DNA of 64,000 nucleotides from Sphaerotilus natans. Lineage in GTDB: Bacteria > Pseudomonadota > Gammaproteobacteria > Burkholderiales > Burkholderiaceae_C. Shown piece by piece: positions 34,940 to 45,257 of this stretch. The DNA lies in assembly GCF_900156335.1 (NCBI RefSeq), contig NZ_FTMZ01000013.1, positions 1-64,000 of the forward strand, read 5' to 3'. The position numbers were made by a program, and so were the translations under genes. Numbering within the stretch: position 1 is the first letter of the stretch; each line of letters starts with the position of its first letter. Under the pieces are notes generated by a model. That model made no database searches. It saw only the letters and a list, made by a program, of their open reading frames with translations, and was not told where the DNA came from.

Positions 34940-37009
34940 ATGCAGGCTCTGACTCTCGAGCCCGCGCGGGTCGACGCGGCCGTGCTGCTCGACCGGCTCG
35001 ATCATCCGGTGTGGATCTTCGACATCGATCGTGGCCGGGTGCACTGGGCCAATGCCGAGGCGGTGCGGATGTGGCAGGCCGGCAGCCTCGAGGACCTGCG
35101 CGCCCGCGACATGGGCCGTGGCATGTCGGTGGCGGTGGCGCGGCGGCTGCGCCAGTACCAGGCCGACTTCCAGTCCGGCGAGCGCTTCGGCGAGCAGTGG
35201 ACGCTGTATCCGGCCGGCGTGCCGGTCACGCTGTGGGTCGACTTCAGCGGCTGGCGGCTCGACGACGGCCGCATGGCGATGCTGTGCGACGCCCGGCGTG
35301 CCGAGACGGCTGCGCCGCCGGACTCGCTGCGCAGCGTCGACGCGCTGCTGCACACCGAGGTGATGACCACGCTGTACAGCCGTGCTGGTCGTGCGCTCTA
35401 CCGCAATCCGGCCTCGCGCTCCAGCGTGGCCGAAGGGTCGGAGCGGCTGTCGTCCCGGCTGGTCGACCGCGAGGACCTGCGTGATCTGGTCACCGCGCTG
35501 CAGGTCTGCGGCGAAGGCAAGATCATCGCGCGGGTGCGCACCGCGGCGGGCGAGCGCTGGCACGACCTGTCGGCGCGGCTGTGCAGCGATCCGGTGACCG
35601 GACGGCGCGCGCTGCTGGTCACCGAGATCGACATCAGCGGCCTGAAGCAGGCCCAGGCCCAGGCGCAGTATCTGGCCGACCACGACCAGCTCACCGGCCT
35701 GCCCAACCGCAACCAGGTCATCAAGGACTTCTCCCAGACCCTGAAGGCCTGCCGGCTGCGCGGCGACGAGGCGGCGCTGGTCTTCGTCGATCTGGACCAT
35801 TTCAAGCGGGTCAACGATTCGCTCGGCCATGCGGTCGGCGACGAGCTGCTGGTGCAGCTGGCACGGCGCCTGAACGATGCGCTCGAGCCGGGCGAGCGGG
35901 TGGCACGGCTGGGCGGCGACGAGTTCCTGCTGCTGCTGCCGCACCGCGAGGCCGCCGCGCGGGCCGAGCGGCGCGCTGACGCGCTGGTGGCGCTGATCTC
36001 CCAGCCGGTGGTGCTGCCGCAGACCGAGCTGCGCGTCACGCCCTCGATCGGCATCAGTGTCTTCCCGCACGACGGCGAGGACATCGACACGCTGATGCGC
36101 CACGCCGATCTGGCGATGTACGGCGCCAAGGCGGCCGGGCGCGGTGGTGCGATGCGCTTCCGTCCCGAGATGACCGCCTCGGCGCAGTCGCGCCTGGCGC
36201 TGGAAGTCGAGCTGCGCCGGGCGTTGGCGCAGGGGCAGATCAGCGTCCATTACCAGCCGCGGGTCGATGTGGTCAGCGGCGGCATCGTCGGCGCCGAGGC
36301 GCTGGTGCGCTGGCACCATCCCGAGCGCGGCATGATCCCGCCGGATGTCTTCATCTCGGTCTGCGAGGACTGCGGCCTGATCTGCGAGCTCGGCGCGCTG
36401 GTGCTGGAGAAGGCCTGCGCGCAGCAGGTGGCCTGGGCGGGGGCCGGGCGCGTGCTGACCGTGTCGGTCAACCTGTCGCCGCGCCAGTTCTTCCACGCCG
36501 GCCTGATCGACGAGATCGACGCGATCCTGAAGCGCACCGGCTGCGATCCGCGCCGCATCGAGCTGGAGATCACCGAGTCGGTGCTGCTCGGCCACGACGA
36601 CCGCACCGTCACTGCGCTGGAGTCGCTCGGTCAGATGGGCCTGCGCATCGCCATCGACGATTTCGGCACCGGCTACTCCAACCTGGCCTATCTGCACCGC
36701 TATCCGGTCGACACGCTGAAGATCGACCGATCCTTCATCCGCGCGCTGTCCGACCGCCCGGCGATCACCGAGATGATCGTCACCATGTGCCGCATGCTCG
36801 GCGTGACCATGGTGGCCGAGGGCGTCGAGCTGGCCGGGCAGCTGGAATGGCTGCGTGGCCACGGCGTGCACGAGTATCAGGGCTGGCTGTTCGGCCCGGC
36901 CGTGCCGCCGGACGAGTTCGAGCGGCGCTGGCCGATCCTCACAGCTGCGTGCGCAGCGCCCACAGCTCCGGGAACAGCTCCGTGTCCAGCATCCGGCGCA
37001 GGTAGCTGA
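34940..37009 (+). CDS. PAS-GGDEF-EAL cyclic di-GMP signalling protein
   Basis: Bifunctional-type c-di-GMP protein of 689 residues: a PAS-like N terminus ([21 protein letters not shown], about 22-45), a second PAS-like segment (about 136-235), a GGDEF domain with intact GGDEF (325-329), and an EAL domain with EAL (453-455), [12 protein letters not shown] and EGVE. No RxxD inhibitory site is seen ahead of GGDEF. No transmembrane segment is visible, so it is probably cytoplasmic. Its last 71 nt overlap the convergent kynA gene. Confidence 0.9.
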
Positions 37010-37805
37010 CGCCGCCGGTGCCGCCGGTGCCGCGCTTGAAGCCGATCACCCGCTCCACCGTGGTCAGGTGGCGGAAGCGCCAGAGCCGGAAGGCGTCCTC
37101 CAGATCGGTCAGCTCCTCGCCGAGCTGATAGAGATCCCAGTGGCGCTGGGGATCGCGGTAGACGGTGAGCCACGCCTGCTCGACCGCCTCGTCGGCCACG
37201 TAGGGCTGGGTCCAGTCGCGCTCCAGGTGGCTGATGGGCACGGCGATGCCGCGGCGCGCCAGCAGGCGCAGCGCCTCGTCGTACAGGCCCGGCGCCTGCC
37301 AGGCCGCCTCCACCGTGGCCAGCAGGTCCGGCCGGTGCGCGTGCGGCTGCAGCATGGCGGCGTTCTTGTTGCCCAGGCTGAACTCGATGCAGCGGTACTG
37401 CCAGCTCTGGAAGCCGCTGGAGTGGCCCAGGTAGGGCCGGATGGCCGAGTACTCGGGCGGCGTCATCGTGGCCAGCACATCCCAGGCGTGGACCAGCTGT
37501 TCCATGATCTTGGAGACGCGGGCCAGCATCTTGAACGCCGGCTGCAGTTCGTCGCGCGCGATGGCGCCGACCGCGGTGGTCAGCTCGTGCAGCATCAGCT
37601 TCATCCACAGCTCGGAGGTCTGGTGCTGGACGATGAACAGCAGCTCGTTGTGGTCCGGCGAGAGAGGCTTCTGCGCGGTGAGGATCTGGTCGAGCTGCAG
37701 ATAGTCGCCATAGCTCATGTCGCCGGAGAAATCGAGCTGCGCGCCTTCGTCGCGCACGATGGCCTCGCCGCGGGGTGCGGACGGGGCGTGGTAGGGGCAG
37801 GACAT
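36939..37805 (-). CDS. kynA: Tryptophan 2,3-dioxygenase
   Basis: Haem enzyme opening the indole ring of tryptophan to N-formylkynurenine, the first step of the kynurenine pathway. It has 288 residues and includes [25 protein letters not shown]-like [19 protein letters not shown], and [29 protein letters not shown] near the haem site. It is the third gene of kynB-kynU-kynA. Its 3' end overlaps the GGDEF-EAL gene. Confidence 0.97.
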
Positions 37806-37848
37806 GCGGTCTCCTTGTTCTTGTTCCGGTCGTCGTTTCGGTCGTCGT

Positions 37849-39165
37849 TCAGGTCACCGCGGCCTTGGCCATGAAGCGGGCCTCGCGCCATTCGCCGCGG
37901 GCCAGCACCTCGGCCAGGGCCTGGATGGCGTCGAACACGTCGACGAAGCGGGTGTAGAGCGGCGTGAAGCCGAAGCGCAGCAGGTGCGGCTCGGCGGCGG
38001 TGCCGTCGCCGGCGCGGTAGTCGCCGATCACGCCGCGGGCGATCAGGGCCTGCATCACCGCATAGCCGTCGATCGAGCCATCGGCCGGCACGCCCAGCGA
38101 CACCTGGCTGCCGCGCTGCGCGGCGTCCAGCGGGGTGTGGATCGTCAGGCCGCTGCCGGCCAGGTGCTGGCGCACCAGCGCGATGAACAGCTCGGACAGG
38201 GCGACCGACTTGGTCCGCAGCGCGGCCATGCCGCCCAGGGGCTCGGCGGCCAGCATGGCGTCCACGCCGCATTCCAGCGCGCTGGCGCCGATCACCGGTG
38301 GCGTGCCGCACAGGTAGCGCTGCATGCCGGGCGCCGGGCGGTAGCCGGGCTCGAAGACGAAGGGCGCGGCGTGGCCCATCCAGCCCGACAGCGGCTGCCA
38401 GAAGCGCTCGGCGTGGCGCGGGTGGGCCCAGCAGAAGGCCGGCGCGCCGGGGCCGCCGTTGAGGTACTTGTAGCCGCAGCCCACGGCGAAGTCGGCGTTG
38501 GCGCCGTTCAGGTCCACCGGCACCGCGCCGGCCGAGTGTGCCAGGTCCCACAGCATCAGCGCGCCGGCGGCGTGGGCCTGGGCGGTGACGGCGGCCATGT
38601 CGGCCATGCGGCCGCTGCGGTAGTTGACCTGGGTGAGCATCAGCACGGCCACGTCCGAACCGGCGCCGGACGCCAGGCGGGCCGGGATCGCGTCGATGTC
38701 GTGCAGCTCCAGCACCATGCCGTGCTGGGCCGCGACCGACTCGGCGATGTAGAGGTCGGTGGGGAAGTTGCTGCGCTCGGAGACGATCACCCGGCGTGCC
38801 GGGTCGTCGGCCTGGGCGATGCGGGCGGCGGCGCTCAGCACCTTGAACAGGTTGACCGAGGTCGAGTCGGCCACCACCAGCTCGCCCGGGGCGGCGCCCA
38901 CCAGGCGGCCGATCTTGTCGCCCACGCGGCGCGGCAGGTCGATCCAGCCGGCGCTGTTCCAGCTGCGGATCAGGCCCTGGCCCCATTCCTGGGTCACCAC
39001 GTCCTGCACGCGGGCGGCGGTGGCGCGCGGCAGCACGCCCAGCGAGTTGCCGTCGAGGTAGTTCACGCCGGCGGGCAGATCGAACTGCTCGCGCAGCGGG
39101 GCCAGCGGGTCGGCGGTGTCACGGGCGGCGCAGGCAGCGCGGTCCAGGGCTTGGGGGTCGGTCAT
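37849..39165 (-). CDS. kynU: Kynureninase
   Basis: PLP enzyme cleaving kynurenine to anthranilate and alanine. From the ATG at 39163-39165 it has 438 residues, with [14 protein letters not shown] at the N terminus and the PLP lysine Lys233 in [16 protein letters not shown], preceded by [20 protein letters not shown] at 39180 could extend it by five residues. It lies 43 nt upstream of kynA. Confidence 0.96.
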
Positions 39166-39190
39166 GGATGTCGGCTCCACGGGGTTCGGT

Positions 39191-39820
39191 TCAGAGGGTT
39201 CGCAGCACGGCGCGCACCGGCGAGGCGCAGGCGCCGGCCAGCTTCAGGGGCAGCGCGATCAGTTCGTAGTCGCCGGCGGGCACCGCGTCGAGCACCAGGT
39301 TCTCCAGCACGCGCAGGTCGCGCTGGCGCAGGATCTGGTGGGCGTCGAGCGTCTTGCTGTCGCCGGGGTCCACGCTGGGCGTGTCGATGCCGACCAGGCG
39401 CACGCCCTGATCGGCCAGCCAGGCCAGGGTCTCGGGGGCGTAGGCGCTGAAGGTAGGGTTCCAGACCGTGTCGGCGCGCTCGCAGGTGCGCACCAGCACG
39501 CGCGGCGGCAGGCCGGCGGCGGCGTGGCGCAGGTGGTCGATGGTGATCAGCGGGCCGCAGCCGATGGCGTGGATCACCCGGCACGGGCCCAGGTAGGCGT
39601 GCAGGTCCACCGCGTCGATGGCGGGCGCGTCGTCGGCGTAGTGCAGCGGCGCGTCGGCATGAGCGCCGACGTGCGGCGACATCGTCACCGCGCTCAGGTT
39701 GACCGGGCAGCCGGGGCCCAGGCGGGCGGTCCAGCGCAGCGCGTAGGGCTCGTCACCGGGGAAGATCGGCGCCGCTGCGCTGACCAGGGGCGAGATGTCG
39801 TGCAGGGTGGGCGGGTTCAT
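39191..39820 (-). CDS. kynB: Arylformamidase (kynurenine formamidase)
   Basis: Hydrolyses N-formylkynurenine to kynurenine, linking KynA and KynU. It has 209 residues of the metal-dependent cyclase-like family, with the metal motif [14 protein letters not shown] and [19 protein letters not shown]. It is the first gene of the operon kynB-kynU-kynA. Confidence 0.95.
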
Positions 39821-39861
39821 GGCGGCGGCACGTTAAGGGCGTTCCGCAGGCCATGGTGTCG

Positions 39862-39873
39862 GTTGTTTGCAAC
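39862..39873. promoter_or_regulatory. Short palindrome upstream of kynB
   Basis: GTTGTTTGCAAC has perfect GTTG/CAAC arms and lies 42 nt upstream of the kynB start, where an operator of a kyn regulator (for example a KynR/Lrp-type protein) could sit. This is only a positional argument. Confidence 0.25.
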
Positions 39874-39921
39874 GGGGAGGGGAAATACGGGCCACCTCTG
39901 AGGCGAGGGCGTGGGCCACCA

Positions 39922-40668
39922 TCACTTGCAGTTCGCTTCGATCCGCTGAATGGATGAGGCGTCGGAGAAGTTGAACTCGGGGCCGACGTACAGACGCAGG
40001 CATTGCCCGGCGCGAGCCTTCTGGAAGGTGCGCCAGACAGCTTCGCTGGCATTGACCGCGAACATCGAATGCCGGCCTTGAGCGCTCTGGATGTGAATGC
40101 CTTCTTGGCTGAGTTGTGGCGCCGTCGTCAGGTGCAGGTCGATGACCCGGCCCGCCGGTGCAGCCGGCTTGGGGGCCGCCGCGGCCGCCGGCGCTGAGAT
40201 GCGGATGGGCATCGGCTTGAAGACGCGAGGCGTGAGCTGTCCGGTGCGCAACAGGTCGATGCGCTTGCCGTTGGCGACGGCTGTGGCGGAGGTGATCTGC
40301 AGTTGCAGTTGCTCGTCGCAGAGCGCCTCGCCGTCGATCATGACTTCGGCGAAGCGTTCTGCGGAGCTGGAGCCGATGCTGGGCAGATCGAGGGTTTGGG
40401 CCATCAGCCGCCGCCCGGCCTTGTCGAGCACAGTGGCCTGCAGTCGCACCTGCCGGAACTCGTCGAGCCCGCTGTCAAGCGTGAGCGTGGCGACGCATTG
40501 GCCCTGGCCGCCGAAGACCGTGTTGCTGTGCCAGACCTCGATGGCCTGGGCGGGCAGGTTCAGCAGGCTGCCCAGTGCGAGCAAGGGGAGATGGCGCCAC
40601 AGCGCTGGGCGGGACCGGGCCGTGGAAGTCGTGGATGGTCGCAGGGGAGGGCGTGCGGTCAGCGGCAT
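39922..40668 (-). CDS. Secreted protein of unknown function
   Basis: No family recognised. From the ATG at 40666-40668 the 248-residue product has a basic N terminus followed by a hydrophobic signal segment ending near LPAQA (about residue 42), then a beta-rich mature part with four Cys and an Ala/Pro linker (SAPAAAAAPKPAAPAG). The upstream in-frame ATG at 40842 would put about 58 polar residues before the signal, so it is rejected. A CGCGACA palindrome lies 55 bp upstream of the start. It borders the accessory region. Confidence 0.65.
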   Translation of the reverse strand: MPLTARPPLRPSTTSTARSRPALWRHLPLLALGSLLNLPAQAIEVWHSNTVFGGQGQCVATLTLDSGLDEFRQVRLQATVLDKAGRRLMAQTLDLPSIGSSSAERFAEVMIDGEALCDEQLQLQITSATAVANGKRIDLLRTGQLTPRVFKPMPIRISAPAAAAAPKPAAPAGRVIDLHLTTAPQLSQEGIHIQSAQGRHSMFAVNASEAVWRTFQKARAGQCLRLYVGPEFNFSDASSIQRIEANCK

Positions 40669-40719
40669 GAGTTTCGTTGAGTGCGTTGCAGATTCAAATC
40701 GAGTGGTGAGCGTATGAGT

Positions 40720-40742
40720 CGCTCGCGACAGGTGATGTCGCG
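40720..40742 (-). repeat. Left copy of a 23-bp palindrome-containing element
   Basis: On the plus strand the core is CGCGACAGGTGATGTCGCG (40724-40742), a 7-bp inverted repeat with a 5-nt spacer. On the minus strand it is followed by an extra base and GCG. The same element, in the same orientation and with two mismatches over 23 positions, is found at 45171-45193. It could be an operator or a recombination-type repeat. Confidence 0.7.
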
Positions 40743-40790
40743 TGGTCTGCTTGTTGCGCTCGATTACAGTCTCAGGTTTTTCTGAATTTT

Positions 40791-41081
40791 TCAGCCGAGG
40801 CGACGTGTTGGGTGGAAATGAATTTTCTCTATGGCTTTGCATGCGTGGGTATTTATTTCCACAAATTCATTCCACGAGTATTTTCCAGAATATTTTTCCT
40901 CGTACTGTACATCTACCCGGCAAATGGAAGGCCGGTCTGCATATATAGTGCATATTTTATTTTCCTCGCCGTAGTGACGGCAGGTGCCATCACCACGATC
41001 AAGAAGCCGGGTCTCGGCGCTCAGATCAACATGCTGGCAACACAGGCCACATTGGGTGCAGGGAAATTCTGATGGCGTCAT
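40791..41081 (-). CDS. YkgJ-family Cys-cluster protein
   Basis: Probable small metal-binding protein of 96 residues. The Cys pattern is CTQCGLCC (Cys8, 11, 14, 15), Cys34 in GTCRHY, Cys44 in CTIYADRPSIC and Cys54, matching the CxxCxxCC zinc/iron-chelating family. The ATG at 41079-41081 overlaps the stop of the upstream gene (ATGA), which decides the start and implies coupled expression with the HNH-like membrane protein. Function unknown. Its G+C is clearly lower than in core genes. Confidence 0.75.
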   Translation of the reverse strand: MTPSEFPCTQCGLCCQHVDLSAETRLLDRGDGTCRHYGEENKICTIYADRPSICRVDVQYEEKYSGKYSWNEFVEINTHACKAIEKIHFHPTRRLG

Positions 41082-42700
41082 ACCAGAGATGCCAGCCACT
41101 TTCGCGTGCTTGCTGAATTTCCCATCTCAAACGGCAATTCTATGCCACGTGCCTCGATGGTCTTCTTTAGTAGCTTGCCGCGCTGGATTTCGTCATTGAC
41201 CGAATCAAGTTCGTCGGTGAAGGATTTTAATTCTGCCGTGTTCAAATTGAAATCCAGTCGGCTCAGCTCCAACAGGTAGCGGTCTAACTCGGCGTTGATT
41301 GCTTGAAATTCACGTACCGTGCTGGCGTGTGGCGACAAATCTTCTATGAAATTCCAGAGCTTGCCTGCCATCTCACTGTGCAGCAGGAAGTAGTTCAATC
41401 CAAGGGTGATTAGGCCCGTTACGAGCGCGCCTGCAAAGGAGGCCAACTCAGAGCCAAACGGGAAGCTGCAGAGCGGCACTAGTTGGGTGTATGCCATGGT
41501 CCCCACGACCGAGGCAACGCCAACTGACAGCAATGAGGTGACTGCTTTGCATTGCTCTACGAGGCTTAGCTCGTCGGGGTTGAATGCCAGCAATTTGATG
41601 GCCTTGACCAACTGACTCCACAGTTCTCTGATGATCTTGATCGCCATTGCTTGAGTGGTGGCGAAGATGTTGAAGATCGTGGTTGTCAAGCTGCCTAATA
41701 CACCGGCGAATACCCCATCCTTAAATGCCATAAGAAAATCATTGAAACGTAATTGAACCCGCTTCCAGATCCCCTTGAGTGAGCTGTTGATGCTCTCAAC
41801 AAATGATTCGAGGTTGAAATTTTTCTTGAGATTTTCCAGTAATTTTGGCAGTTGCTCACGCAGTTCGAACCAGACTTCCGCCATCACCAATCCAAGCATC
41901 TGTCGGGTGCCCATTGAGATGCCTGCCAGGCCGGCAGAGCTGGCTGTCTGTTGCAGGAATTTGCTGCTGGTATAGTATGTCTTGTTGATTTGTCCTTCGT
42001 AGGCATGCCGCGCTTCAGCATCGCGTTTTCTCATGCCGTCCAAATCAACCGTTTTAAGGGCTTTAATTTTTTCTTCGTTTTTTCTGATGCTGTCTTCTAG
42101 GCCGCGCGCGGCATTATTTTGTTGCGGCGTTTCGCGCGGCATTTTTGTCAGTCGTTCGCGATCTTTTGTCAGTTCGCTTTCAAGATTGGATATCCGGCTG
42201 GGAAGATTGTCAATCCATTCGTCGATCGGGGTGGCTTGCTTCGACCGGTTGATCGTGCTGAGGGTGCTTTGCAGGTTGCTGCTCTGGTTGGCCAGTTCTA
42301 CGCCATTCAGTTCGGCGAGTACCCGACCTGCATCATTGTGGATCTCCTTGGCGCTGATGACGTGATCTAGGTCCCGCCGTTCGTTGGCGGACATCGCCTT
42401 GTTTCTGTAAGGGTCCTCCAATGTGCCTGCAGCGTGGCTGGCTTTGTCTTCCGTGCCCTTGGCAACATAATTTTCATGTTGATGGTAGGGCGTGGAATCG
42501 TATTCCCCGCGTTGGTCAAAGCGATTCTTCTCTGCTGCGGTTGCCCATACGCCGTTGCGTACGTTGTGAATGGTATCTACTTCGCCGCCGAGCTTGTCCT
42601 TGAATAGTAGAAAATCTAAGCCAAAGCTGGTGGTGAGACTGGTGATTACGGTTTTCTCGAGTTCGTCTGCCCAAGGGAAATTTTTTGCTGCGGCGTGCAT
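41078..42700 (-). CDS. HNH-nuclease-like protein with C-terminal membrane region
   Basis: No named family recognised for the whole 540-residue protein. Residues 93-154 resemble a small HNH (beta-beta-alpha metal) core: LEDPYRNKAMS, then DLDHVISA with Asp112-His113, SNLQ (Asn142) and INRSK (Asn151). Coiled-coil-like helices follow (about 165-235). Three or more hydrophobic segments are seen at about 327-350, 386-402 and 418-440, then a final coiled coil. The architecture suggests a membrane-held nuclease-like effector, but activity is inference. The gene is low in G+C, has no clear ribosome site, and is followed by the coupled Cys-cluster gene. Confidence 0.7.
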   Translation of the reverse strand: MHAAAKNFPWADELEKTVITSLTTSFGLDFLLFKDKLGGEVDTIHNVRNGVWATAAEKNRFDQRGEYDSTPYHQHENYVAKGTEDKASHAAGTLEDPYRNKAMSANERRDLDHVISAKEIHNDAGRVLAELNGVELANQSSNLQSTLSTINRSKQATPIDEWIDNLPSRISNLESELTKDRERLTKMPRETPQQNNAARGLEDSIRKNEEKIKALKTVDLDGMRKRDAEARHAYEGQINKTYYTSSKFLQQTASSAGLAGISMGTRQMLGLVMAEVWFELREQLPKLLENLKKNFNLESFVESINSSLKGIWKRVQLRFNDFLMAFKDGVFAGVLGSLTTTIFNIFATTQAMAIKIIRELWSQLVKAIKLLAFNPDELSLVEQCKAVTSLLSVGVASVVGTMAYTQLVPLCSFPFGSELASFAGALVTGLITLGLNYFLLHSEMAGKLWNFIEDLSPHASTVREFQAINAELDRYLLELSRLDFNLNTAELKSFTDELDSVNDEIQRGKLLKKTIEARGIELPFEMGNSASTRKWLASLV

Positions 42701-42734
42701 GCTGGTGTTGATGTTGAATAAATTTTAAGTGGTG

Positions 42735-42754
42735 GCGGAGCCTCGTGGCTCCGC
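42735..42754 (-). other. Perfect stem-loop between two accessory genes
   Basis: GCGGAGCC and GGCTCCGC form an 8-bp stem around a 4-nt loop in the 71-nt gap between the glycine-rich gene and the HNH-like gene. In the direction of transcription (minus) it is followed by CACCACTT and then AT-rich sequence rather than a T-run, so an attenuator or RNA-processing hairpin is as likely as a terminator. Confidence 0.55.
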
Positions 42755-42771
42755 ATAAAAATTCTTCCTTG

Positions 42772-43863
42772 TTATCGACCCTGTGCCTCGGTTCGGGTCT
42801 TGTCGATTTGCTCATCTAGCTCGTTGCTGTTGAGCAGCATTGAGCCATCAGCATCGGTGTCCATGATGGGGACATTATTTTTGTCCTTGACCACATTGCC
42901 ATTGAATTTCTTGACCTTGAATAGTGGGGTGGTGATCAGGTCGACCATTATTGCGGCCAAGGCGTAGCCATTCTCGATTGCTTGCATGATGCTGTCACTC
43001 ATGCTGGCCAAGTCAGCGCTCGGGTCAATATTTCTTGAGCGGAGATCGTTGAGGCGATTATTAACGTACTTGATATTTTCGAAATGCTTGTCGAATTGCC
43101 TGTATGTTGACTTCAAAACAGATCTGATCTCAAAGGCATACTCTTCCACTTTGACCAATTGCTGCTGAGCCTTCTGCTGCTTGGCAATCGCACTGTCCAC
43201 TTCGCGGTCGGCCTTGTGCGCGTTCTTCAGGGCTTCATCACCATGACTGTCATAAGCCCAGCCAGCGATGGCCAGCACCGGGCCCGCCACAGCGGCACCT
43301 AGTATTGCGGTGCCGCCAGCCATGCCCAAACCGCCGGCACTAAGCGAACCTCCACCGATTGCTGCAAGTGTTGCATTGGTCGCTGCCACGCCTGCCAGCG
43401 AGGAAATGGCCGTGCCGGTGGATGCTGCACCCAGCGCCATGACACCGCCGTATACTGCGAATCCAGTCGCTGCACCTGCAAGGCCTGCCCCAGCGGTGGC
43501 ACCCAGTACCCCAACAGCGGTATAGCTGTAACTTTCGATGCTTTGTAGCTTGTGCTGAGGAATGTTGATCTTCAGCTTGTCTTGGCGGTCCGCATTGAGC
43601 TTTTTCAGCAGCTCATTGGCGATAGTCTTGAATTCGTTGAAATTTCTGCCAATCTCCAGTTCTTCTCGCCCCAGTGCCTCCAGTGCCTTGTTGGTTGACT
43701 TTTCCTGTGCGTCGAACTCATCCTTGTTTTTGGCGTAACGTGCTTTGGCCGAATTGACGATGTCATCGGCTTCCGAGTGCTTCTGGTAGCCGTCATAGCC
43801 TTTTTTGGCGCCATAGGCGGCCGTGACCAGCGCAGCCGCACCGATGATGAGGGGAAGAGGCAT
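42772..43863 (-). CDS. Glycine-rich hydrophobic membrane protein flanked by coiled coils
   Basis: Function unknown. The ATG at 43861-43863 is preceded by GAAGGAAA and yields 363 residues; an upstream ATG at 43902 lacks a ribosome site. Parts in order: N-terminal hydrophobic helix (about 3-18), charged coiled coil (about 28-95), a long Gly/Ala-rich hydrophobic block (about 112-205) including AIGGGSLSAGGLGMAGGTAIL and GAAVAGPVLAIAGW, then a second coiled coil (about 215-275). The coil, glycine-rich hydrophobic hairpin, coil plan recalls helical pore-forming proteins, which is inference only. It lies between the WYL regulator and the HNH-like gene on the same strand. Confidence 0.7.
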   Translation of the reverse strand: MPLPLIIGAAALVTAAYGAKKGYDGYQKHSEADDIVNSAKARYAKNKDEFDAQEKSTNKALEALGREELEIGRNFNEFKTIANELLKKLNADRQDKLKINIPQHKLQSIESYSYTAVGVLGATAGAGLAGAATGFAVYGGVMALGAASTGTAISSLAGVAATNATLAAIGGGSLSAGGLGMAGGTAILGAAVAGPVLAIAGWAYDSHGDEALKNAHKADREVDSAIAKQQKAQQQLVKVEEYAFEIRSVLKSTYRQFDKHFENIKYVNNRLNDLRSRNIDPSADLASMSDSIMQAIENGYALAAIMVDLITTPLFKVKKFNGNVVKDKNNVPIMDTDADGSMLLNSNELDEQIDKTRTEAQGR

Positions 43864-43972
43864 GAGATTTCCTTCTGAGGGCTTGAACGGCCCTGGTTTC
43901 ATGAATGCTCGAGTCCTTGAGAAGACAGAGCGACGGAGAATGTTCTTGTTTTAAAAATTTTGAAGTCGATTT

Positions 43973-44887
43973 TTATGCTTGACTGACATACGTCGCCAAC
44001 TCTCGCTTCAGATCTTTCTGCCACCCCTCCGGACTCACGATCCGCACATTCGGCACCCAATACCGCACGATCGGCAGGATCTGGTTGGGATGGGCGACGC
44101 GGGACGACACCAGCAGGCTGCCGTCCTCGAGGTGGCGGACGATCTCCTGGGCGGGCACGAGCTTGCGGCGCAGGAAATAGCCGGCGGCGTCGCGCGAGAC
44201 CTTCAGGACGACTTCGGTCTTCTGCTCGTTGAGCCAGATGCCGTCCTCGGCATCGAGCCGGGCGGTCAAGGCCGGCTCGGGCTCGAAGCGCTCGGGCGAG
44301 ACCAGCAGCGCGCTGATCCGGCTGAAGGCGAAGCTCTTGAGCGTGCTGCCGTCGAGCGCCATCAGGTACCAGATGCCGGTGTGGTTGACCAGCCGGTAGG
44401 GGTGCAGGGCCTCGTAGGTCTTCTCGCCCTCGGGCTTGCGGTAGCGAAAGCCGATGAGCTGGCGCTCGCGGGTGGCCGCCTCGACCTGCCGGAAGCGCTG
44501 CTGCTGCGCGCTGTCGAGCGCCTCGTAGCTGTGGCCGCGCACCTGCAGCACCGACTCCAGCCGGCTGTCGAGCAGCTCGCGCACGAAGTTGTCATCGAAG
44601 ACCGGATACAGGCCGCTCAGGCCGGTCAGCGCGGCGAATCGCTCCAGATCGGTGAGCGTCAGCTTGCCGAAGTACTGCGGCGCCATCCGGTAGCCGCCGT
44701 CCTCGGTGCGTTCGATCAGGTCACCGAGCTGGCCGAGACGCTGCGACAGATCGCGCTGGATGGTGCGCACGCTCACGGCGAACTCGTCCGCGAGATCGGC
44801 CGGATGCAGCGTGTGACCCTGGTTGAGCCTGCAAAGAATGAGCGTCAGCCGGTCAGCCAGCGTGTCGTGCCCTGCGCTTCTTGTCAT
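43973..44887 (-). CDS. WYL-domain transcriptional regulator
   Basis: Cytoplasmic DNA-binding regulator of 304 residues. The N-terminal helix-turn-helix (about 26-50, LADEFAVSVRTIQRDLSQRL) is followed by the WYL ligand-binding domain with the literal Trp-Tyr-Leu at 173-175 (GIWYLMALDG) and a WYL C-terminal extension. WYL regulators such as BrxR and CapW commonly control phage-defence operons and respond to nucleic-acid or nucleotide signals. That knowledge, with its position ahead of two unknown membrane proteins, suggests it controls the cassette. The 109-nt gap to the next gene may hold a second promoter. Its G+C is near core level, unlike its neighbours. Confidence 0.88.
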   Translation of the reverse strand: MTRSAGHDTLADRLTLILCRLNQGHTLHPADLADEFAVSVRTIQRDLSQRLGQLGDLIERTEDGGYRMAPQYFGKLTLTDLERFAALTGLSGLYPVFDDNFVRELLDSRLESVLQVRGHSYEALDSAQQQRFRQVEAATRERQLIGFRYRKPEGEKTYEALHPYRLVNHTGIWYLMALDGSTLKSFAFSRISALLVSPERFEPEPALTARLDAEDGIWLNEQKTEVVLKVSRDAAGYFLRRKLVPAQEIVRHLEDGSLLVSSRVAHPNQILPIVRYWVPNVRIVSPEGWQKDLKRELATYVSQA

Positions 44888-44916
44888 GGAAAGCGGATCG
44901 TTGACAGTCGATCGGA

Positions 44917-44949
44917 GGGCTGACTTCTGGTCTTTTTCTCTATCAGCCC
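44917..44949. promoter_or_regulatory. Inverted repeat upstream of the WYL regulator
   Basis: GGGCTGA (44917-44923) is mirrored by TCAGCCC (44943-44949) around a 19-nt pyrimidine-rich spacer, starting 29 nt before the regulator's ATG. A spaced inverted repeat here could be an autoregulatory operator. Confidence 0.35.
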
Positions 44950-44974
44950 GGTGTTCTTGTTTGTTTTCTTTGGA

Positions 44975-45151
44975 TCAAGAGGGTAGGTCTTGTTGCGGCT
45001 TGCCCCGCATTCCGGGGTGGAGGCTGCTGTGAATTTTTTCTGGTTCCGGATGGTTTTGCTGCGTGAGCGTGGCATCGGCACCATGGGTCAGCCGGGCCGT
45101 GGCCAGCAGCAGCAGGTAGAGCAGCGTCAGAAGGAACATCAGCGGTTTCAT
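44975..45151 (-). CDS. Putative small secreted peptide
   Basis: A 58-residue frame starting MKPLMFLLTLLYLLLLATARLT, a convincing signal-peptide-like hydrophobic start ending near HGA. The short polar remainder is rich in Gln, Pro and His. There is no good ribosome site. The 23-bp palindrome element lies 19 bp upstream of the ATG. It could be a real small gene or a chance frame. Confidence 0.35.
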   Translation of the reverse strand: MKPLMFLLTLLYLLLLATARLTHGADATLTQQNHPEPEKIHSSLHPGMRGKPQQDLPS

Positions 45152-45170
45152 GACGCGCAAGCCTAGACAC

Positions 45171-45193
45171 CGCCCGCGACAGGTGGTGTCGCG
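45171..45193 (-). repeat. Right copy of the 23-bp palindrome-containing element
   Basis: The core on the plus strand is CGCGACAGGTGGTGTCGCG (45175-45193), again a 7-bp inverted repeat with a 5-nt spacer. It matches the copy at 40720-40742 in the same orientation, 4.45 kb away, so the two bracket the accessory cassette. Each copy lies just upstream of a gene for a putative secreted product. Confidence 0.7.
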
Positions 45194-45257
45194 CTCGTTC
45201 TGCAAGTGAACGATCTGAAGGGCCCGAGGGCCGGGTGCCGCGATGCGGCGACGGGCC

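Follow-up and report, generated by a model that had tools for sequence, protein, structure and literature searches.

Two bacterial defence systems come closest, in the way they may work, to the locus described here. SNIPE is a membrane-bound GIY-YIG nuclease that cuts DNA during injection (PMC13190303). Zorya, which has a membrane part and a nuclease, and Kiwa are comparisons of the same kind, going by the summary in another paper (PMC12904381). A further likeness concerns regulation: WYL repressors such as CapW stand guard over immune operons whose action is lethal to the host cell (PMC9122588). Among the candidate systems of PADLOC 2.0.0, PDC-M40B and PDC-M09A are distant relatives of two of the proteins considered here. 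The locus lies in a stretch of 64,000 nucleotides from Sphaerotilus natans (contig NZ_FTMZ01000013.1, positions 1 to 64,000; hereafter the window). A first-pass annotation, made from the letters alone, had singled out four genes between the kyn operon and ruvC, namely a WYL regulator and three genes that we call A, B and C, and had proposed a regulated toxin- or defence-like module acting at the membrane. Our best reading is that A, B and C provide a nuclease that is anchored in the membrane and acts against invading DNA, and that they often sit behind an exchangeable WYL regulator. A role in defence is likely; whether the whole account holds, that of a horizontally exchanged module that acts against phages or other incoming DNA by the full mechanism given below, is about an even call. 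We found no description of the cassette in the literature; the supplements of PADLOC or DefensePredictor may list its E. coli version. Parts of it have been flagged by others before, since PADLOC 2.0.0 contains PDC-M40B and PDC-M09A.

Genes A, B and C as one module

In the genome scan 123 loci were confirmed. The best 80 of these and ten plasmid loci make up the 90 that were compared with the window. Independence cannot be assumed for all of them, since several enterobacterial or Photobacterium copies are nearly identical. Both A and C stand beside B on the same strand in 85 of the 90, all fetched through B (counting the longest B of each locus), and for this reason the association is more than chance. 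Two gene orders were seen, which together with that count speaks against accidental adjacency: A-B-C in 62 loci, by record titles mostly Proteobacteria with one Veillonella, and B-C-A in 23, from Clostridia and other Firmicutes, Treponema, Desulfovibrio and a Gastranaerophilales metagenome-assembled genome. The A-B-C module loci span several phyla. The exceptions are a locus without A or C (L009), three that have A and in which no C was recognised (L036, L084 and L088), and one with two copies of B and no C, in which A adjoins the shorter copy, not the one counted (L091). Pairwise distances among the three proteins co-vary over 79 loci (r of 0.941, 0.881 and 0.826; all three genes are present in 86 of 91 loci, seven broken or cut ones were left out, and the shuffle ignores shared descent). 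Judged from these comparisons, A, B and C are one module. The first-pass annotation had allowed that homologues might prove scattered or might belong to a housekeeping family; they have one common neighbourhood in unrelated genomes, and no such family was matched.

Gene B (41078..42700, minus strand; 540 aa) combines a putative N-terminal HNH-like domain with a C-terminal hydrophobic domain, as read from the open reading frame (ORF), the alignment, the structural model and hydropathy. The putative catalytic residues D112, H113, N142 and N151 (42248..42367) are invariant in 94 of 94 sequences. In the predicted model, strands 109-113 and 143-147 and helix 148-154 give a beta-beta-alpha pattern, with a predicted local distance difference test (pLDDT) score above 90 over residues 41-250. 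The residue set of an HNH/beta-beta-alpha-metal nuclease is thus found on a beta-beta-alpha element, with N rather than H in the last position, and the HNH-like reading offered earlier stands. Three hydrophobic segments, centred at about residues 338, 395 and 430 (41378..41716), appear in hydropathy averaged over 79 family members. Pfam gave nothing above cut-off for B, its sub-cut-off matches being mostly to coiled coil. Sequence searches of the PDB gave no convincing relative.

Gene A was called as an ORF of 376 aa (42772-43902, minus strand); as M14 is conserved, being invariant in 72 sequences, the likely start is at 43863. The alignment, the model and hydropathy point to two long helices that flank a hydrophobic hairpin rich in Gly and Ala (residues 133-213 of the 376-aa ORF; 43264..43506), where many Gly and Ala are invariant over the 72 sequences and the predicted model has pLDDT below 50. 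There is no Pfam match in A. Neither A nor B matches a Pfam family above cut-off, and both have membrane-type segments by hydropathy, in line with the first-pass annotation. A known pore-former or dynamin was considered for A and set aside: Foldseek and VIA returned mostly long-helix matches, and a bacterial dynamin-like protein (2j69) is listed at an E-value (E) of 0.56. The hairpin does match positions 457-563 of LeoBC, of the bacterial dynamin-like LeoA/LeoBC type (E 4.5e-8; 58 of 72 members); membership of that family was rejected, as A has no GTPase domain by Pfam and the best LeoBC stretch is the hairpin.

Gene C (40791..41081, minus strand) is a YkgJ/CxxCxxCC protein. Its match to PF03692 reaches 32 bits (E 2e-7), above the cut-off of 23, and eight Cys are invariant across 70 sequences. 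The ORF extends to 41099; from the start at M7, at 41081, the gene overlaps the stop of B as ATGA, which confirms the overlap seen on first inspection, and the start lies exactly at an overlap of this type in 33 of 78 loci. To our knowledge the role of YkgJ-type Cys-cluster proteins is unsettled.

The PADLOC candidates help to place the cassette. B is a distant homologue of PDC-M40B over most of its length: all 79 members match that model, and hhalign of the family with a PDC-M40B-type protein (P0004) gives Prob 99.8 and E 1.7e-27 over 389 columns. The PDC-M40 example viewed (L106) has a WYL gene upstream, as the cassette does. It differs in having no A or C by profiles; in their stead is a 295-aa protein that ends in a hydrophobic segment at the C-terminal side. 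The neighbour P0001 in that locus matches no PADLOC model. A has the Gly-rich hairpin of PDC-M09A, whose model is matched by all 72 members (hhalign Prob 99.2, E 1.6e-19). Here the partner is different: no recognisable homology links PDC-M09B to B (hhalign Prob 0.6; none of the 79 B members matches PDC-M09B), no C was seen beside it in L107, and the cassette does not show the PDC-M09A-PDC-M09B pairing. Pfam gave nothing above cut-off for PDC-M09B; that it may be a PD-(D/E)xK nuclease is an unproved guess.

The phylum was also sampled evenly, with 398 genomes. B-type matches (taken at E up to 1e-15) occur in four, and are full-length in two, the window's genome and G750; A is adjacent in both, and C also in G750. 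A-type matches occur in nine, the window's genome included. One genome (G561) has TerB-like, C and A genes close to a contig end; no partner was recognised at the A-type loci of G700, G738 and G556, and G760 was outside the loci viewed. In two others (G735, L183:4045-7967; G826, L185:492-2770) PDC-M09B comes after an A-type hairpin gene, and in G735 a WYL gene lies upstream. By sequence these two follow the plan of the cassette with another partner protein. We put forward tentatively, and with more doubt than confidence, that A-B-C typifies a two-part class of membrane defence that has gone unrecognised. In such a class the A-type Gly/Ala hairpin would dock exchangeable membrane-anchored enzymes (HNH-type in B, another type in PDC-M09B), the Cys-cluster protein would be a metal or redox switch, cutting would occur at the place of entry, and WYL slots would swap such modules with Zorya-like cassettes.

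A proposed mechanism and the evidence that bears on it

In the preferred reading, A and B would lie together in the inner membrane, with the hairpin of A in the bilayer, holding or gating B. The trigger may be a phage or plasmid bringing its DNA to the envelope, or a disturbance of the membrane. The cytoplasmic HNH domain of B would then nick or cut DNA near the membrane, so that self and non-self might be told apart by place and not by sequence. C, with a metal or Fe-S centre, could keep B off or license it, and the WYL protein would keep the operon repressed until the cell is infected or its DNA damaged. The resemblance to SNIPE is that of a possible membrane-tied nuclease, the mechanism on the cassette's side being conjectural. 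The nuclease type is different, several genes are involved, and no GIY-YIG or DUF4041 match was found by Pfam in A, B, C or the 79 B members, which rejects membership. Membership in Zorya is rejected too, as no PADLOC Zor model matches A, B or C. If the reading is right, membrane nuclease defence of this type would be widespread, a second and unrelated case would exist for telling self from non-self by cutting DNA at its point of entry, and YkgJ-type Cys-cluster proteins would acquire a job that can be tested.

The first-pass annotation had asked whether the genes recur near known defence genes. Such enrichment is present but modest: 74 PADLOC models match among 130 neighbour proteins and ten among 102 control proteins (E up to 1e-10). 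The neighbours were the 158 nearest proteins, of which two over 1,200 aa and 26 more were left out; the controls were 102 of 136 proteins drawn from 15 regions of nine genomes. The support is weak because the models are redundant, some ORFs admitted by the crude caller are false, and no model matches more than three of the 130 neighbours (25 of the 74 models being among the matches listed). Nor was a known defence gene seen in four of the nine E. coli contexts viewed (L129, L131, L133 and L179), and the fold matches of the cassette proteins are weak. These points count against the preferred reading. The proposal of a regulated toxin- or defence-like module accordingly survives in part: the cassette is conserved and mobile, B is HNH-like and A and B are of membrane type, and against this stand the modest enrichment and a WYL gene that is not a fixed part.

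The architecture of A and C also suits abortive infection, in which A and B would be a suicide effector, the hairpin of A causing a leak and B damaging the chromosome, with C restraining them and the WYL protein repressing the operon until infection releases it. The long helices and hydrophobic hairpin of A are apt for membrane insertion, the ORF of C overlaps the stop of B, and host-killing immune operons guarded by CapW-type repressors provide the precedent. This is unlikely. A and B occur without a recognised C in phage LAh10 and in three of the exceptional loci named above, which means that C is no strict antidote; often, too, no WYL gene was found.

Carriage on plasmids, islands and phages

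In tblastn searches B was found in 49 plasmid records and A in 41; those with B comprise 11 conjugative, seven mobilizable and 31 non-mobilizable plasmids. An E. coli version (a 3,858-bp query taken from a plasmid record) matches 428 of 5,426 E. coli genomes, 368 of them over at least 80% of the query. The matches fall at 471 places, all chromosomal, some of the partial ones being remnants of WYL or B. Nine contexts were viewed, two of them remnants (L132 and L133). The islands lie by selC (L129), by glnH/dps (L131), by tRNA-Phe (L133) and elsewhere, and in L132 Zorya II adjoins the WYL remnant. One type of island (L130, L177, L178 and L180) has type I restriction-modification genes near the cassette, which is preceded by an outer-membrane protein gene and, in three of the four, followed by a phosphoethanolamine transferase gene.

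Four Aeromonas jumbo phages (D3, D6, D9 and LAh10) also carry B, in seven records altogether; tblastn with A found no phage record, and scans of viral_contigs with A1 and with the phage protein found no homologue. LAh10, the sole phage whose surroundings were viewed, was the single significant viral fold match. In it A, seen by profile only, precedes B and no C was recognised (L092:4970-7566). The jumbo-phage copies perhaps serve a phage in excluding rivals. Carriage on plasmids, on E. coli islands and in four jumbo phages would be expected if the cassette were a device of superinfection or entry exclusion, by which these elements bar rival elements and protect the host as a by-product. We think this distinctly unlikely: no integrase or plasmid gene was seen in the window's inserted block, and the mechanism would in any case equal that of the membrane-anchored nuclease.

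Three comparisons gave crude ratios of nonsynonymous to synonymous substitution rates (dN/dS) of 0.17, 0.13 and 0.08 for B, 0.88, 0.59 and 0.34 for A (on few changes) and 0.35, 0.26 and 0.23 for the WYL protein. By these ratios B is under purifying selection. This is difficult to reconcile with a toxin-antitoxin or addiction pair, kept for plasmid stability, in which B (with A) is the toxin and C the antitoxin. The frequent ATGA-type overlap of C and carriage on plasmids are in its favour; the three genes stay together through a change of order, several loci have no recognised C, and the E. coli copies are chromosomal. We regard such a pair as improbable.

In the E. coli annotations (L129-L131 and L177-L180) B often goes under 'ATP--cob(I)alamin adenosyltransferase', while A is named 'chemotaxis protein' or left as hypothetical. 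Neither name has Pfam support, nor has ATPase for B, in B itself, in its 79 members or in A; such names would mask the system if it is one. Gene C is unannotated in five of the seven full E. coli copies; all seven, and L054 as well, nevertheless have an intact ORF for it that begins at an ATGA overlap.

Apart from A, B, C and the WYL gene, the neighbour that recurs most is TerB-like (cluster members in 11 loci; directly upstream in six of 77), and no other cluster occurs in more than eight loci. TerB- and IrmA-type neighbours (the latter in three of 91 loci), the outer-membrane protein and phosphoethanolamine transferase genes that adjoin the cassette on E. coli islands, and a YkgJ chelator could together mean a role in envelope, metal or redox stress with no relation to invading DNA. 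With the HNH-like residues invariant and the site described below given over to a Zorya-like module in another species, we consider this very improbable.

The site beside ruvC and its WYL regulator

The position between the kyn operon and ruvC was given correctly at the outset; the extent was not. A genome of the same genus with an empty site (G001) aligns up to window position 39891 and resumes at 45252. As only 22 bp separate the two points there, the insertion is 39,892-45,251, a block of 5.36 kb that holds the WYL regulator, A, B, C and an IrmA-family gene between C and kyn. The earlier right end, 45193, falls upstream of the WYL gene and short of the block's end. The four cassette genes are consecutive and all on the minus strand, and the low G+C noted downstream of the regulator is real: 0.54 for A, 0.51 for B and 0.49 for C, against 0.66 for the WYL gene; the IrmA gene stands at 0.67, ruvC at 0.735 and the whole window at 0.70. 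The dip at B is common but not general: in 60 of 78 loci the gene has a lower G+C than the flanking sequence. None of the 59 other relatives searched has B (12 of the same genus, 23 of the same family and 24 of the same order). In another congener (G007, 68% complete; L161) the match runs to 36931 and restarts at 45245, window 36932-45244 not being there; because of where it breaks, this site is without the kyn genes as well as the insertion.

The WYL protein (43973..44887, minus strand; 304 aa) has the helix-turn-helix (HTH)-WYL-WCX architecture of BrxR/CapW-like regulators. WYL (E 1.5e-12) and WCX (E 1.5e-9) are above the Pfam cut-offs, and HTH_11 (E 3.8e-5) scores 23.9 bits against a cut-off of 25. 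By analogy with the BrxR and CapW type (PMC9122601 and PMC9122588), it would head a putative defence operon. A same-genus genome (G006) shares both flanks of the site, ruvC and the kyn side, and has a WYL gene whose product is 89% identical. A-B-C is absent behind that gene, and B from the genome. A WYL-led four-gene operon stands there instead (L159:5612-10369), consisting of an AAA ATPase (PADLOC IetA, 2e-31), a 430-aa protein that no PADLOC model matches, a ZorA-like protein (ZorA1, 1.4e-9) and a ZorB-like OmpA/MotB protein (ZorB1, 2.7e-21). In G422 the same plan is found behind a WYL relative with 43% identity (L173:2532-7462), so that this Zorya-like operon is seen in two genomes in one order. 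We know of no name for it. By this comparison the insertion is mobile and the site exchangeable, with one WYL regulator in front of interchangeable modules.

That the regulator governs a defence-like operon, as first supposed, is borne out to the extent that in the sister species it stands at the head of a Zorya-like module in the corresponding place. It is not a fixed part of the cassette, and was rejected as such: of the 77 loci whose sequence reaches far enough upstream, 46 have a same-strand WYL gene at most 2.5 kb away on that side. Around nine relatives of the WYL gene the neighbouring genes were viewed (G005, G006, G009, G312, G320, G333, G394, G422 and G425) and, in all but G425, also scanned. 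In four, PADLOC-similar genes are among the next same-strand genes: the two Zorya-like cases, a LeoBC-like gene in G005 (8.8e-9) and a LeoBC-hairpin-like second gene in G333 (1.6e-6). G394 has a PDC-M72A-like gene (3.9e-31) past an opposite-strand gene, and no PADLOC-similar gene was recognised around those of G320 and G009. In G312 (L171:692-7256) the WYL relative is followed by a same-strand run with two larger genes without clear match and a patatin-like gene, similar to a phospholipase effector (5.3e-8), about 4.6 kb down the run.

The remaining gene of the block is the IrmA-family ORF (39922..40842, minus strand; PF18673, E 9.7e-22), with a probable start near 40665. A core role was rejected on its occurrence, and it is likely accessory; beyond the window it follows C only in Allochromatium (L003:11905-12714 and L031:11904-12668).

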